Shown one piece after another: positions 11,583-16,742 of a stretch of 64,000 bases of DNA; within the stretch, counting starts at the first letter, position 1; each line of letters opens with the position of its first letter. The stretch comes from Thalassobacter stenotrophicus. GTDB lineage: Bacteria > Pseudomonadota > Alphaproteobacteria > Rhodobacterales > Rhodobacteraceae. The notes beneath the pieces are model-generated. The model was not told the DNA's origin. It saw nothing but the letters and a program-made list of their open reading frames with translations, and ran no database searches. The stretch spans positions 1 through 64,000 of the forward strand of contig NZ_CYRX01000030.1 of assembly GCF_001458315.1 (NCBI RefSeq), given 5' to 3'. Position numbers and translations under genes: made by a program.

Positions 11583-11882
11583 TCGGCGCGCGAGGGGGAG
11601 ACGATCTGAACCGAAAGGGGAGCCGTGGGACCACGGTTCCCCTTTTTCTGTACTGGTGTGGTTGAATGAACCCGGCGTACATTGCTGACGTTCGTGTCGC
11701 CCGCAGCTAATGCTACCGAAGAGCCCAGAAGATCCAATGCTGCACGTTGCATCAATGTCCGCTCTTTTGCGCAGATGAAAATGTAGGTCTTTTTGTTAAG
11801 GAATCTCAAGCCGGTTGGCATTGACGCAAAGCTTTTTGCCCGTAGAAATACGGATTGGTGTTTGCGCCGACACCTGCGATGA
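11583..11882. other. Intergenic stretch before the sensor kinase
   Basis: Apart from the terminator at 11616-11647, this 300-base stretch shows no convincing gene. It is visibly more AT-rich than the accessory array to the left, as is the downstream kinase region, which suggests the boundary between two segments of different origin. It should contain the promoter of the kinase operon, but no clear -35/-10 pair stands out. Confidence 0.5.
11616..11647 (+). terminator. Rho-independent terminator after the DUF736 gene
   Basis: AGGGGAGCCGTGG (11616-11628) pairs with CCACGGTTCCCCT (11631-11643), with one G-T pair, a 2-base loop and a following T-run. It is the clearest terminator in the window and ends the accessory array. 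Confidence 0.85.
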
Positions 11883-13403
11883 ATGCAAATGGCCGTCTCA
11901 TATCCAACAAACTTCTGGCGGAACACTTTGCTATGGGCGCTTGCCGTCATGCTCGCTCTCGGCGGGGTGGCGTTTTTTGAACGACAGAACTTGGTGCGTG
12001 AACTGACGATCAAAAGTGAAACGCTGCATCGTCTGGCCTCACAGCGGGCTGATCAGCACGATGCGCATCTGACATCGTTGTCTGCAATTTTTGTGGCTGG
12101 TGGGATGGAGCGGCAGGACTTACTGTTAGACGTGGCCGCGACGATCAGGCGGTTTTACCCACGTATTACGTCGGTGAATGTTGTCCCATACGTTCCGTCC
12201 CAAACCGCCATAGAAACGCAGCCCGGTCTTTCGTTACAGGCGAGGGAACGCGTCATTGAATTGGCCCGCCGCTCGACCGGGGCTTTGCAAATTGGGCCAA
12301 TGCCGGACCTGCCGGATCACTATCTGCTAGTGAAACGCACCCCTAATTCTGATGCGGCACGGCACGGTTTAGCGCTGGTGATTGACGCCCGCGCGCTGAT
12401 TGCCACAGATGATCCGTTTTGGGACACGCCATCAGCTTCTTTGCGTCTGTCGACGCCTGATGGTCAAACGGCATTGGTCGGTGAGGTTTCATCGGGTGAG
12501 ACTGGGTTTTCCAAACCGCTCGGCAGTGCGTCTCAGCCTTTGGTGTTTGAGACCTCTTTGACAATTGGGCTGTCTGACCTGTTGCCGGTCGAGACAGTGG
12601 TCTTTGTTATCGCACTGGTCACGGCCCTCTTTTTGCTGTCAGCCTTCGGTCTAAAGCAACGCGCGCGCACCAAAGATGCAGAAGACCGCGCCAAGCTGAG
12701 CGCGCAGGAAACGCGGCTAGCCCACGCCTCCCGCGTGAATGCAATGGGCGAAATGGCCAGCGGCATGGCGCATGAACTGGCGCAACCTCTGACCGCAATC
12801 CTGAGTCAAGCGCAGGCTGGCCGCCATTTGGCGCGGCGTGGTGAGGTCGCACGTCTTGGCACTGTGTTGGACGACACGGTATCCCAAGCACAGCGCGCGG
12901 CAAATCTCCTTGATCGCCTGCGAAGGTGGAGCAAACCGAACCGTGCCCCGTCTGAGGCCTGTTCCGTCCATGAAGCCGCGCAAAGCGTTAAAAATCTGTT
13001 GGCATTGGAGGCCAAGACGAAGGGGGCTGGCATTACCCTGTCGCTGTATGATCACCCACTTTTCATTGACGCCGATCCGGTCGAGTTGGAACAGGTTGTG
13101 TTTAATCTGATGCGCAACGCGCTTGATGCCTCGGACGAGGCACAGGTCACGATCCGCACGTATGTCGATGGCCCGTCGGTCATTTTGGATGTCAGCGATA
13201 CCGGGCCGGGGGTGTCTGACGACCTTAGGCCTCGCGTCTTTGAGCCTTTCGTGACAGGCAAACCGGATGGAACGGGGCTTGGCCTTGCGCTGTGTCAAAG
13301 GCTGATTGAGGAAATGGGCGGTGATATCAAGCTGCTCGACGACACCGACCAGACCACGTTCCGTTTGTCCCTGCCGCGCTCAATCAAGACGGTGAGACCA
13401 TGA
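11883..13403 (+). CDS. Membrane sensor histidine kinase
   Basis: A 506-residue kinase. A transmembrane helix at about 14-32 and a second at about 238-257 frame a 200-residue periplasmic sensor region with no recognised fold. The cytoplasmic part has a HisKA domain with the phospho-acceptor in AHELAQPLTAI (His297) and an ATPase domain with NLMRNALDA (N box), DTGPGV (G1) and GTGLGLAL (G2). This arrangement, paired with a FixJ-type regulator, is typical of proteobacterial FixL/DctB-like kinases. It overlaps the regulator gene by four bases. ATG codons at 11883 and 11889 are both possible; neither has a strong ribosome site. The next two genes are exported proteins, possibly its signal partners or targets. 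Confidence 0.88.
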   Translation: MQMAVSYPTNFWRNTLLWALAVMLALGGVAFFERQNLVRELTIKSETLHRLASQRADQHDAHLTSLSAIFVAGGMERQDLLLDVAATIRRFYPRITSVNVVPYVPSQTAIETQPGLSLQARERVIELARRSTGALQIGPMPDLPDHYLLVKRTPNSDAARHGLALVIDARALIATDDPFWDTPSASLRLSTPDGQTALVGEVSSGETGFSKPLGSASQPLVFETSLTIGLSDLLPVETVVFVIALVTALFLLSAFGLKQRARTKDAEDRAKLSAQETRLAHASRVNAMGEMASGMAHELAQPLTAILSQAQAGRHLARRGEVARLGTVLDDTVSQAQRAANLLDRLRRWSKPNRAPSEACSVHEAAQSVKNLLALEAKTKGAGITLSLYDHPLFIDADPVELEQVVFNLMRNALDASDEAQVTIRTYVDGPSVILDVSDTGPGVSDDLRPRVFEPFVTGKPDGTGLGLALCQRLIEEMGGDIKLLDDTDQTTFRLSLPRSIKTVRP

Positions 13404-14005
13404 CCAACCATGTTTACCTCGTTGATGATGATGAGGCTGTTCGCAACGCGCTGAGCCTTTTGTTGGAAACCGTCGGGCTGAATGTGTGCAGTTTTGCCTC
13501 GCCCGAGAAATTCCTGAGCCAAGTGGCAGACTTGACGCCGGGATGCCTGATCCTTGACATCAGGATGCCTGCTATTTCGGGGCTGAAACTGCAAGAAAAG
13601 CTAACCGAGAAAGGCGTGTCATGGCCCACCGTCATTATCAGCGGACACGGCGATATCGAGGCGTGCAGGCGCGCGTTTCGCAATGGGGCGATTGATTTTC
13701 TGAGCAAGCCCGTCGACGAACAAAACCTGATCGACGCAATCCAGAAGGGTCATGCAGAGCTGGAAGCTAACCAGCAGGCTTTGGAAGAACGCGCAGAAGC
13801 GGTGGCATTGGTGCGCAATCTGTCCACACGCGAACAACAGGTTCTTGAGATGATCGCAAAGGGTCTGACGACCAAGCAAATCGCTGACGCGCTGACCCTG
13901 TCACCCCGCACAGTTGAAAGTCACCGCGCGGCTATTGCGGCCAAAGCGGGCACGTCCTCGGCGGCGGAATTGACCCGTTATTGGTTGGATGCACAGGCAG
14001 ACTAA
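13400..14005 (+). CDS. FixJ/NarL-type response regulator
   Basis: A 201-residue regulator. The receiver domain (1-120) has the acidic pocket VDDDE, the phospho-acceptor Asp53 in ILDIRMP and the conserved Lys in FLSKPVD. A LuxR-type helix-turn-helix follows (about 138-195: LSTREQQVLEMIAKG, then KQIADALTLSPRTVESHR). The partner kinase is directly upstream with a four-base overlap. Likely targets are the exported haem-binding-type and ankyrin genes that follow; an inverted repeat in their leader (14053-14071) is a candidate site. Confidence 0.9.
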   Translation: MTNHVYLVDDDEAVRNALSLLLETVGLNVCSFASPEKFLSQVADLTPGCLILDIRMPAISGLKLQEKLTEKGVSWPTVIISGHGDIEACRRAFRNGAIDFLSKPVDEQNLIDAIQKGHAELEANQQALEERAEAVALVRNLSTREQQVLEMIAKGLTTKQIADALTLSPRTVESHRAAIAAKAGTSSAAELTRYWLDAQAD

Positions 14006-14052
14006 CACACTTATCAGTAGAACTACGGACACCTTTGCGGATGCTACGAATA

Positions 14053-14071
14053 TCGCCGATCACAGCGGCGA
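14053..14071 (+). promoter_or_regulatory. Inverted repeat upstream of the HbpS-like gene
   Basis: TCGCCG (14053-14058) and CGGCGA (14066-14071) form a symmetric site with a 7-base centre, 41 bases before the ATG of the exported HbpS-like protein. It could be an operator for the adjacent response regulator or an mRNA leader hairpin. Confidence 0.4.
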
Positions 14072-14111
14072 ATTAGAACTGGAGCATCAGTTCAACAAAA
14101 GGAAATACACA

Positions 14112-14594
14112 ATGATCCGTTCCATCGCACTTGCCACAGCTCTGCTGACACCCGCTGCAGCCTTCGCCCAAGACCTGCCCACAGCTCCTTACTTGCCGCT
14201 CGATATGGCAACCACAGCAACACAGGCTGCCGTCGCTGCATGTTCTGCCGAAGGTCACAATGTCAGCGTCGCAATCGTTGCGCGCAGCGGCGAGACCAAA
14301 GTGCTATTGCGTGCCGACAACGCGGGCCCGCATACCGTTGGGTCCAGCACAGGCAAAGCGTTCACATCCGCCAGTATGGGCCGTGACACGGCAGGTCTTG
14401 CGGGGTTTATCGGTGGTAACCCTGAAAACGGTGGTCTGCGCGATATGGACAGCCGTCTGGTGATCCAGGCTGGCGGCCTGCCCATCCGGATCGGTGGCGC
14501 ATTGGTCGGTGGCATCGGTGTCGGTGGCGCACCATCTGGCGCAATTGACGAGACATGTGCCCGCGCAGGTCTTGACGCAATCGGTGCTGAGTAA
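14112..14594 (+). CDS. Exported HbpS/GlcG-family (DUF336) haem-binding-type protein
   Basis: A 160-residue protein. Residues 1-19 are a signal peptide (IRSIALATALLTPAAAFA, cut before QD). The mature part is a DUF336 domain of the GlcG/HbpS family: AACSAEGHNVSVAIVARSG, then HTVGSSTGKAFTSASM, and the C-terminal GGLPIRIGGALVGGIGVGGA loop that is diagnostic of the family. HbpS of Streptomyces is an extracellular haem-binding protein that senses redox stress and acts on the kinase SenS; here too a kinase and regulator lie directly upstream. Haem binding by this protein is inferred, not shown. Confidence 0.82.
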   Translation: MIRSIALATALLTPAAAFAQDLPTAPYLPLDMATTATQAAVAACSAEGHNVSVAIVARSGETKVLLRADNAGPHTVGSSTGKAFTSASMGRDTAGLAGFIGGNPENGGLRDMDSRLVIQAGGLPIRIGGALVGGIGVGGAPSGAIDETCARAGLDAIGAE

Positions 14595-14647
14595 AGTACA
14601 TGGCCCGTCCCTCGGGGGGCGGGCCCCTCTTTCTGAAAGGCAACATC

Positions 14648-15313
14648 ATGTTTCGTTTCCTGCTGCTCGCTTTGGTAATTGGTTCTTTTGGGTCTGCCCA
14701 TGCGCAGACAGCCCCGTCAGCATCAGACATTGCGTCCTACACAGGTCTGCATCTTGCCGCCCACGAAGGCGACGTGGATGTAATTAACCGACTGATCGGA
14801 GCAGGTGCCGATGTGGACATCCGAGATCGATCCCAGCGCACGCCTGCTCATGTCGCGGCGTTCGCATCACACGATGACGCGCTGACGGCACTTGCAAACG
14901 GAGGCGCGGATATGAATGCGCTGGAAAACCGCGTCTATGACGTGCTGACCATCGCCGCTGTCGCGAACGATCCTGAAATGGTGTCACTTGCAATGGAACT
15001 CGGGAACGCCCCTGACCTGATCACCAGTGTCTACGACGGGACAGCCCTTATCGCGGCCGCCCACCTCGGGCATCACGACGTTGTTGCACGTTTGGTGGAT
15101 GGCGGCGCACCACTGGATCATATCAACAATCTGGCGTGGACGGCTTTGATAGAGGCTGTCGTTTTAGGAGACGGCGGCCCAGATCATATCAAGGCGTTGC
15201 AAATCCTCGTTGATGCAGGAGCAGATAAATCCATCGGTGATCGCGATGGCGTCACACCGCTGCAACACGCCACGTCGCGCGGCTACGCCGAAATGGTCGA
15301 AATCCTGCAATAG
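14648..15313 (+). CDS. Exported ankyrin-repeat protein
   Basis: A 221-residue protein with a signal peptide (residues 1-20, ending SAHAQ) and about five ankyrin repeats (TGLHLAAHEGDVDVINRLI, RTPAHVAAFASHDDALTAL, then further repeats ending TPLQHATSRGYAEMVEIL). Periplasmic ankyrin proteins such as AnkB of Pseudomonas support catalase and peroxide resistance. It follows the HbpS-like gene by 53 bases with an AAAGGCAACATC ribosome site, so the two are probably co-expressed. No enzymatic domain is present. Confidence 0.85.
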   Translation: MFRFLLLALVIGSFGSAHAQTAPSASDIASYTGLHLAAHEGDVDVINRLIGAGADVDIRDRSQRTPAHVAAFASHDDALTALANGGADMNALENRVYDVLTIAAVANDPEMVSLAMELGNAPDLITSVYDGTALIAAAHLGHHDVVARLVDGGAPLDHINNLAWTALIEAVVLGDGGPDHIKALQILVDAGADKSIGDRDGVTPLQHATSRGYAEMVEILQ

Positions 15314-15506
15314 GATGTGGGGCAATGACCTTACCAAATCGTGCTATTTTGAAGGCTGCCGTGCCCACCAACCTCAATGCAACCTTCCCATAGCAGCCGT
15401 TGGCGCAACCGCAGCGAAAGGGCACTTTGTCCCGCATCCTACCAGTTCGCGCACGGCGCAGCGAAGGTCCGGTCTACAACTTCCCGGCCACTCCATGGCT
15501 CTAAGG

Positions 15507-15839
15507 CTAGTCAGTGAAGACCTGTCTCGCTGACGCCAGTCTCATCCAATCCCGGCCGCCGAACGCGACAAGAGCGAGATATATCTGTGCGGCGTCTACA
15601 TGCGGTTTGAATACGATGGTCAGTCGCTGACCGGTGCCGCCATGGCGCACCAGCCATCCGTCCAACTTGCCGCTGAGGCGAGCACCAGATTTTGGGTTTG
15701 CGGCAATGTTCTGGATAAGGGCATCGATTTCATCTAGTCGACGGCTCGCCGCTGCAAGGTCACCGTCAGTCACGTCGACAATATGATCAACGATACCGAT
15801 AAGGTCCCGTTCGAAGAACGGATGCCTGATAAATCGCAT
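15507..15839 (-). CDS. parE: ParE-type toxin
   Basis: A 110-residue RelE/ParE-superfamily protein: the N-terminal FIRHPFFERDLIGIVDHI, the helix RRLDEIDALIQNIAANP and the C-terminal strand region RLTIVFKPHVDAAQIYL fit plasmid-stabilisation toxins. The start (ATG at 15839) overlaps the antitoxin stop as TGATG. ParE toxins poison DNA gyrase and kill cells that lose the element. The canonical C-terminal part is a little longer than usual. Confidence 0.75.
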   Translation of the reverse strand: MRFIRHPFFERDLIGIVDHIVDVTDGDLAAASRRLDEIDALIQNIAANPKSGARLSGKLDGWLVRHGGTGQRLTIVFKPHVDAAQIYLALVAFGGRDWMRLASARQVFTD

Positions 15840-16114
15840 CAGGTCTTTTTGGCCATCGCCGCAAGATGGGCCCGTGCGCTGGCCGTGACGTCGGACGCTT
15901 CGCCGACGGGTTCCCATTGGTCGAGTGGCAGAGACAGGCGGCGTTCCAATTCAGCCTCAAACAAAGACCGTTCACGATCTCGCTCTGCCTTGGCCTTCGC
16001 CAATTCACCCGAAACAGCCGCGCTCATATTTGGGTACTCTCCAGCTTCGACCAGTTCCTTGGCAAATGTGTAGGCCGTGTCGGTGAAACTGACAGATTGC
16101 TTTTGAACGCTCAT
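15839..16114 (-). CDS. parD: ParD-type antitoxin
   Basis: A 91-residue protein. An N-terminal ribbon-helix-helix (QSVSFTDTAYTFAKELVEAG, then NMSAAVSGELAKA) is followed by a charged tail that would bind the toxin. The ATG at 16114 has AAGGAGTTTGCC upstream; the longer upstream reading has none. It is the first gene of the parDE pair and should repress it. Confidence 0.78.
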   Translation of the reverse strand: MSVQKQSVSFTDTAYTFAKELVEAGEYPNMSAAVSGELAKAKAERDRERSLFEAELERRLSLPLDQWEPVGEASDVTASARAHLAAMAKKT

Positions 16115-16742
16115 GGCAAACTCCTTGGTGCTCCAATAGACTACCGAATTTTGCCGCTTCTGGCAAGCAGGTCGGGCCGACCGAGCGAAATGCGTCAATA
16201 GCCTTGCGGCCTCCCCGCTCGGCTGCGCGTGTCGCAGGGGAGAACGGCCCTTCGGTCCGTCGCGCATTCGGCCATGCGGCCTCACCGCGGCGTCGCACCC
16301 GGCATCCCGGTTTGCCCGCCTCGCGAGCACGTCCCACCCCGGCCGCTCCGCCGGATTGCGCTCTGGTCTGTTTTGGCCCGAGGCCAAAACGATCCCGCCA
16401 CTGCATCCGTCTCCCGCGTCCGGTCGGGCCGTTTGCCTGCTCGGGTCGGCCAAACCTACCGTCAAAACACACACACATGAGTGCGGAAGCATATCCTCCG
16501 GATGGCCCCCAAATCAGCCCGCGTCAAGGATCGCAAAACTTTTCGGCGAGGGCGGCGCTTGTGGTGCGGGGCGGTCCCGTGCGTGAGCGCGCGCATGTGT
16601 CGGGTGCTGCGCGCGGAAAACTTTTGCGCCCGGCAAGCCGGCGGCTGCGCCGTCCCTGACCCGGGCAGATTCGGAAACCAGACATTCGGCCATGCCCCCA
16701 CACTCACGTGGTGGCTCTATAACCGAACACTGGAGACCAGAC
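16115..16742. other. Non-coding, hairpin-rich stretch before the mobilisation module
   Basis: About 630 bases with very high GC and no credible gene; the open frames are low-complexity shadows. It has many repeats of GGCCTC/CGGCC type and a strong hairpin at 16370-16390 (GTTTTGGCC, loop CGA, GGCCAAAAC). A CACACACACA run lies near 16464-16475. It may hold the promoter of the DUF2493 gene, and could be part of a replication or transfer origin, but no iterons were found. Confidence 0.45.

Follow-up and report, generated by a model that had tools for sequence, protein, structure and literature searches.

The closest described counterpart of the system that we consider here is HbpS-SenS-SenR of Streptomyces. 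In S. reticuli, HbpS senses haem- or iron-related redox stress and works with SenS and SenR in peroxide defence (PMC4991794 and PMC3754957, both in part). The targets that SenR activates include its own hbpS, senS, and senR genes (PMC3754957, in part). A passage of the 2016 paper on HbpS describes clustering with senS and senR only for the hbpS-like genes of a number of actinobacteria (PMC4991794), and among the best matches in the open-licence literature, we found no description of a proteobacterial cluster of a kinase, a regulator, and HbpS. Here, we analyze such a cluster in the alphaproteobacterium Thalassobacter stenotrophicus. It lies at positions 11883-15313 of a window of 64,000 nucleotides, which is part of a 119-kb contig (NZ_CYRX01000030.1, or C30), and we will refer to it as the cassette. 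We propose, with a probability of about 0.58, that it is a self-contained and self-regulated three-component signalling cassette, with HbpS as an accessory sensor or feedback partner of the kinase. The cassette may work like HbpS-SenS-SenR, by analogy, but it is not a member of that system.

The four genes of the cassette are real, and all are on the + strand. The first (11883-13403, 506 amino acids) encodes a histidine kinase with a transmembrane helix, a predicted periplasmic dCache sensor, a second transmembrane helix, and HisKA and HATPase_c domains (30.6 and 83.1 bits in Pfam); the transmembrane segments were assigned from the sequence and from model helices. The Pfam search of the kinase gave no HisKA_3 at E = 0.01 and no match to a dCache model. 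The second gene (13400-14005, 201 amino acids), whose open reading frame (ORF) overlaps the kinase stop by 4 bases, encodes a FixJ-type response regulator with a LuxR-type helix-turn-helix (Response_reg, 92.3 bits; GerE, 65.9 bits). The phospho-acceptor motifs are present (His297 in the kinase and Asp53 in the regulator), and the ATP-binding motifs are intact. The third gene (14112-14594, 160 amino acids, within an ORF that opens at 13989) encodes the HbpS/GlcG-type protein, which matches PF03928 at 99.2 bits (the curated cut-off is 25). The fourth gene (14648-15313), which is optional, encodes an ankyrin-repeat protein (Ank_2, 92.6 bits) with a signal-like N-terminus. We placed its start at 14648, which is probably correct over the first ATG at 14600: a near-identical plasmid record has the equivalent start, and it also has the same kinase start.

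Linkage of the kinase, the regulator, and HbpS

We scanned species genomes with the HbpS-like protein (alignment A1) and kept the best 80 of 419 relatives. The sensor domain of the kinase, the regulator, and HbpS were found together in 71 of these 80 loci, which include species titled Sulfitobacter, Paracoccus, Mesorhizobium, Nitratireductor, Halomonas, and Castellaniella. Going by the record titles, the cassette-bearing species are named as alpha-, beta-, and gammaproteobacteria. Of the other nine loci, six have neither a kinase nor a regulator beside HbpS (at one of these, L146, there are only 373 bases before hbpS) and three were scored as partial, one of which (L164) is complete by tblastn (L199). 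Two of the six (L148 and L160) come from genomes in which a divergent cassette is present at another place (L195 and L196), with identities of 36-37% for the kinase, 50-52% for the regulator, and 44-45% for HbpS. In both, the regulator and HbpS are directly downstream of the kinase, and L195 includes an ankyrin.

We also searched with the periplasmic sensor domain of the kinase, using 295 genomes from the family and then, with the sensor alignment, 385 genomes from the class. HbpS-like proteins are common in the family (103 of 295 genomes at E ≤ 0.001). The kinase's periplasmic domain is rare: it was found in 14 of the 295 genomes, and 13 of these matches were strong. We dropped the fourteenth (G217; 26% identity, two stops, E = 3.7e-4), which is a weak and broken match. 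Another genome (G079) was left out because it has no kinase match; it has a 51-residue match to the C terminus of HbpS (73%) beside an ankyrin gene. In all 13 strong matches, the regulator, HbpS, and the ankyrin gene are directly downstream of the kinase, and the 13 carriers are the 13 genomes with the best E-values for HbpS (at least 73% identity). At one locus (L044), the ankyrin match is divided between two overlapping ORFs. In the class set, four of the 385 genomes matched the sensor; two were new, and both have the order kinase, regulator, HbpS, ankyrin. The adjacency of the cassette genes is far beyond chance. An earlier note, made from the DNA letters alone, had named a lack of conserved linkage as grounds for refuting its reading; conserved linkage is supported.

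An alternative is that HbpS and the ankyrin protein are outputs only. The kinase would then bind a small molecule in its own dCache pocket, and the regulator would turn on hbpS (and the ankyrin gene), whose products would act in the periplasm to bind a compound such as haem, iron, or an aldehyde, or to detoxify it, with no contact between HbpS and the kinase. The HbpS orthologues at the other four of the six loci (L106, L141, L143, and L146), with no kinase match in their genomes, would fit this account. However, it leads us to expect kinase-regulator pairs with other outputs, and no kinase without HbpS downstream was seen among the 17 kinase-ascertained matches that we inspected (15 distinct genomes). 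That the linkage means that HbpS acts on the kinase is, in our view, about as likely as not.

The earlier note had suggested a survey of the four-gene set. The four genes are not a fixed set: an ankyrin gene was found after HbpS in just 40 of the 71 kinase-bearing loci. (Among the remaining 31, the stretches of L124 and L131 break off too early to decide.) An ankyrin-family neighbour is present somewhere in the stretch in 45 of the 71. Similarly, the ankyrin follows HbpS in three of the seven plasmid records annotated with kinase, regulator, and HbpS. One of the plasmids, Pseudosulfitobacter pDSM107133_e, is near-identical to the window (99.9% over 6901 bases), with the same four genes in the same surroundings.

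No other neighbour is recurrent: the next family is found in 13 of the 71 loci, at scattered positions. This bears on whether HbpS might belong to a local catabolic pathway, like GlcG or NahX, which the two-component pair would regulate. PF03928 genes are reported inside catabolic operons (PMC3754957 and PMC8153426, both in part), and some cassette loci do lie among catabolic genes. However, no shared catabolic neighbourhood was found across the 71 loci, and near-consensus operator-like sites are confined to the cassette (see below). We consider a catabolic role to be very improbable.

Some individual loci differ in other ways. In Sulfitobacter brevis (L097, partial; also L198, 4064-7221), an insertion of about 2.5 kb splits the regulator gene; the kinase, hbpS, the operator-like site, and the ankyrin remain. 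Devosia sp. 66-22 (L132, partial; also L197, 3453-3642) has kinase fragments only and no regulator match, next to an intact site and hbpS. The close HbpS orthologues of L106, L141, and L143 are from Halomonas citrativorans, Mesopusillimonas, and Advenella; these loci lack the site, and a search of the genomes detected no kinase. The divergent cassettes L195 and L196 are from a Paenochrobactrum metagenome-assembled genome and from Brucella thiophenivorans; in the latter, there is a further, solitary HbpS gene some 14 kb away from the kinase. In Martelella (L035, 5532-6688), a second ankyrin gene and a nucleoside deaminase gene are directly before the kinase, in place of an ankyrin gene after hbpS.

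An operator-like site before hbpS

The earlier note had placed a promoter at 14006-14111, and this interval contains a conserved operator-like site. The composite site (14014-14051, + strand) consists of TCAGTAGAACTACGGA, 14 nt, and CTACGAAT, and it starts 98 bp before the start of hbpS. Across the loci, a palindrome, TCCGTAG-NN-CTACGGA, lies between the regulator and hbpS, often overlapping the stop codon of the regulator, with the half-site 14 nt later. This conserved combination, about 95 bp before hbpS, is new here. The palindrome is present with at most two mismatches in 68 of the 71 kinase-bearing loci (23 exact, 33 with one mismatch, and 12 with two). Shuffles of the same stretches, which approximately keep dinucleotides, reach this level in just 1 of 1420 cases. 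The position is conserved as well: the palindrome starts 90-99 bp before hbpS in 68 of the 71 loci, and the best match to the half-site is at +14 nt in 69 (exact in 46). At the six loci that lack the kinase-regulator pair, the palindrome was never found with two or fewer mismatches (the best matches had 6-7).

A candidate site for the regulator, CCCGTAGAAATACGGA, is also present before the kinase gene (11839-11854, + strand), with two mismatches to the palindrome. Sites upstream of the kinase with at most two mismatches were found in 24 of the 71 loci, as compared to 1 of 1420 shuffles.

Within genomes, the site seems to be specific to the cassette. The composite site is the only match with up to three mismatches in its own genome. 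At that threshold, 12 of the 13 carrier genomes have it before hbpS only; two extra matches are the same palindrome on the other strand, and the thirteenth carrier (G114) has a spacing of 15 nt between the palindrome and the half-site. A search for the exact half-site gave no match in 5 of the 13 genomes. With at most one mismatch, the palindrome is found at 16 places in the 13 carriers: 13 before hbpS, 3 before the kinase, and none elsewhere (the reversed control had 12 matches). A variant from the kinase promoter, CCGTAGNNNTACGGATT, is exact in 5 of the 13 genomes; all of these copies precede the kinase gene, and the control gave no matches. Near-consensus palindrome, composite, and variant sites are thus confined to the cassette in these 13 genomes, and we infer that the main target of the regulator is the cassette itself. 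It would be the cassette's regulator that binds the site, and the circuit looks dedicated and self-regulated.

These results do not favour the role in peroxide defence that the earlier note had proposed, in which HbpS would sense haem or iron redox stress and the ankyrin protein would support catalase. S. reticuli HbpS provides a precedent, the HbpS-like protein and a Streptomyces homologue share 45% identity over 135 amino acids, and ankyrin proteins are needed for catalase in Pseudomonas aeruginosa and Campylobacter jejuni (PMC7567364, in part). However, PF00199 catalase is absent from 12 of the 13 carrier genomes. T. stenotrophicus itself lacks it and has one KatG, encoded on another contig, and no near-consensus copy of the operator was found outside the cassette in any of the 13 genomes, this one included. 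Nor did we find a homologue of catalase or KatG in the 99 locus stretches (18 of the 80 species-genome loci have less than the full flank). Neither the neighbourhood nor the apparent regulon gave support for a link to catalase or peroxide. Furthermore, 31 of the 71 loci showed no ankyrin after HbpS, and the EXXE motif of Streptomyces HbpS is not conserved. Overall, this role is improbable.

The ankyrin protein resembles AnkB of the AnkB-KatB pair of Pseudomonas and Cj1386 of Campylobacter in its signal-like N-terminus and a possible tie to haem handling, but unlike them, it has no catalase partner that we could find. Its matches to effector models in NCBIfam are far below the curated cut-offs and reflect generic ankyrin similarity. 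As the earlier note had suggested, it might be an output of the circuit: its gene lies behind the hbpS promoter.

Comparison with known systems and a possible mechanism

The earlier note had inferred a proteobacterial analogue of the Streptomyces system, and analogue, not homologue, remains the right word. Both systems have an exported (by inspection) PF03928 protein that is encoded beside a kinase and a LuxR-type regulator, and both show a sign of autoregulation. To compare the kinases, we used a SenS-like protein from S. chartreusis, which we named from its gene position (its genes were read from ORFs). This protein contains HisKA_3 (59.2 bits), whereas the cassette kinase combines a HisKA core with a dCache sensor, and the best alignment between the two is just 25 bits, in the ATPase stretch. 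Homology to SenS is thereby ruled out, and because of these differences, the cassette kinase was probably recruited separately. The regulators also differ (the cassette's is FixJ-like and 30% identical to a SenR-like protein), as do the sites: TCCGTAG-NN-CTACGGA in the cassette versus a consensus of CGGGCCGCGTCCCG (PMC4991794, in part). In the cassette, kinase, regulator, and hbpS are on one strand, whereas in S. chartreusis, hbpS is divergent from the kinase and the regulator. Finally, the cassette often adds an ankyrin, and it has no catalase gene nearby.

By profile scores, the kinase core and the regulator are closest to FixJ/TtrR-type systems, but all scores are below the curated cut-offs for FixJ, FixL, TtrR, and TtrS (for example, 186.4 bits for the regulator against NCBIfam FixJ NF006900, with a cut-off of 255 bits). 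The cassette also differs from these systems in its sensor and in having an HbpS gene as the apparent output.

The sensor is predicted to have a tandem PAS/dCache fold. An AlphaFold2 model of residues 3-258 of the kinase has a predicted local distance difference test (pLDDT) score of 94.1, and the structures that it matches best are dCache-type sensor domains from kinases and from chemoreceptors (3lif, CqsR, Mlp24, and PctA). For 3lif, the Foldseek E-value is 4.0e-5, with a Z-score of 14.9 and a root mean square deviation of 3.3 over 199 aligned residues. In the sensor alignment (A2; the window and 56 of 66 loci, which passed a filter), the invariant residues of the modelled stretch include Q56, H57, H60, R92, Y145, K149, R150, N153, S213, and Q216, and the QHDAHLT-like and FYPRI motifs are kept in the divergent copies. 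LuxQ (3c30) is also among the Foldseek matches, weakly. LuxQ is a kinase that reads a periplasmic partner, LuxP, so the fold of the cassette sensor is related to that of a kinase with such a partner. In the cassette, however, the partner would be an HbpS-like protein (if the two are in contact), not a protein of the sugar-binding type.

The best solved match of the HbpS-like protein is S. reticuli HbpS (E = 3.9e-25). Its N-terminus, MIRSIALATALL, appears by inspection to be signal-like but has no twin arginine and hence, unlike in Streptomyces, no twin-arginine translocation (Tat) signal; it is probably exported to the periplasm. In Streptomyces HbpS, iron is bound by EXXE (78/81), Lys83, and Asp143 (PMC3754957, in part). 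In the cassette protein, EXXE is missing, and the equivalents of Lys83 and Asp143 are kept as K82 and D146, which are invariant. As read from the alignment, Lys108 is replaced by Arg110 and His28 by Tyr27. Two cysteines set the cassette protein apart: Cys44 and Cys149 are invariant (24/24 and 45/45 aligned rows) and are kept in the two divergent copies, and the Streptomyces homologue has no cysteines there. The 45-row alignment comprises the window and 44 of the 80 loci; five of these loci have neither kinase nor regulator next to HbpS, and at another (L132) the kinase is broken. The pair is a candidate disulfide or redox switch, and HbpS may sense redox state. The model of HbpS reached a pLDDT of just 66.8, too poor for a structural view of the pair.

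Our proposal is as follows. The membrane kinase, with its periplasmic dCache sensor, would phosphorylate the FixJ-type regulator, which would bind the palindrome and the half-site and switch on hbpS, along with the ankyrin gene where present (we infer activation over repression). In a subset of lineages, the regulator would also switch on its own kinase-regulator operon. In the periplasm, the HbpS-like protein would most likely be an accessory sensor and a feedback partner of the kinase, as HbpS is for SenS, and it may also handle a ligand (a small molecule, for example haem or iron). The ankyrin protein would be an optional periplasmic helper. Sequence analysis backs several parts of this scheme: the anatomy, the linkage, the conserved operator-like site (confined to the cassette at near-consensus stringency), the predicted dCache fold, and the mobility.

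Several observations weigh against the proposal. dCache domains usually bind small molecules directly, and the input may therefore be something other than HbpS. In the alignment to the solved match, the cassette protein lacks the EXXE iron motif, and the model of HbpS is poor. HbpS and the sensor do co-diverge: with the kinase core and the regulator corrected for, the partial r is 0.25 (1 of 2000 permutations). However, we do not take this as proof of contact: it is not specific, because HbpS also co-diverges with the regulator (partial r = 0.31 given the sensor). Sites before the kinase are found in only a subset of loci, the divergent cassettes L195 and L196 have no palindrome at two mismatches, and the kinase frame is short (246-398 amino acids) in 4 of the 71 loci (L100, L109, L130, and L154). 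The regulator could have further targets, as the genome search outside the cassette took in near-consensus sites only (at most one mismatch). And three plasmid records (L036, 8905-8920; L074, 5905-5920; L078, 5905-5920) have an operator-like site with one to three mismatches and HbpS-ankyrin, but no kinase on the same record; these sites reflect either control in trans or relics. By eye, L195 and L196 have look-alikes of the palindrome with four mismatches at the same place, but shuffles sometimes reach that level, so we make no claim for them.

The account in which HbpS and the ankyrin protein are outputs only draws on some of the same evidence. It would suit a predicted dCache fold and near-consensus sites that occur only on the cassette's own promoters, and EfgA, another DUF336 protein, binds formaldehyde (PMC8153426, in part). 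On the other hand, a related DUF336 protein has been proven to partner a kinase (PMC4991794, in part). We regard this account as credible but doubtful, and we prefer HbpS as an accessory sensor or feedback partner of the kinase. A bolder form of our proposal is that unrelated kinases gained HbpS-type proteins as co-sensors in the periplasm on at least two independent occasions, and that the proteobacterial version is a closed loop that targets only its own HbpS(-ankyrin) and kinase genes and reads redox through Cys44/Cys149 instead of EXXE. We offer this tentatively, since as a whole it is rather unlikely.

The cassette recurs across proteobacteria and seems mainly to regulate itself, so HbpS-type signalling probably extends beyond Streptomyces and its relatives. 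In proteobacteria, the HbpS-like protein is linked to a kinase and a regulator that are unrelated, and there is a clear operator-like site. Two questions can therefore be put to direct tests: what it is that DUF336/HbpS proteins sense, and whether they have become partners of kinases repeatedly. Given its small size and apparent self-regulation, the whole cassette could be transferred to a laboratory host together with a reporter.

A cargo slot in a plasmid backbone

The earlier note had suggested from the lower GC (guanine plus cytosine) content that the segment was acquired separately. The difference is real: GC is 56.9% for 11650-15390, as compared to 61.9% and 63.2% in the flanking pieces, and GC at third codon positions (GC3) is 58-64% in the four cassette genes, as compared to 84-85% in two flanking backbone genes. 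Low GC is not unique to the cassette: further parts of the window, several in number, have a GC content that is just as low. The cassette lies in a cargo slot (11652-16200) in a roseobacter plasmid backbone of conjugative type. The sequence flanking the cassette is common to 168 plasmid records, 149 of which are typed as conjugative; only one covers at least 80% of the query. In five relatives that we inspected, the flanks are 91-96% identical, and homology stops at 11646-11726 and resumes at 16200-16242. (In some other records, H106 and H109, the match to the right flank already begins near 15392-15429.) Other plasmids have different cargo in the slot: an S8 peptidase with an ATPase, a NotI-type restriction-modification pair, a TIR protein, an AAA ATPase with a rhomboid protease, or small regulators with VOC and SRPBCC proteins. 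Because the slot holds other cargo in relatives, and given the contrast in GC3, separate acquisition of the cassette as plasmid cargo is supported.

Besides the cassette, the slot contains a ParE-like toxin gene (the Pfam match is under the cut-off) and an overlapping upstream gene, which adjoin the cassette on the - strand (15507-16132). Since the slot carries defence-like genes in other plasmids, it could be mined for new defence systems. It sits between DUF736 and DUF2493 backbone genes, and an S8 peptidase with an ATP-binding protein is present in 12 of 30 listed records.

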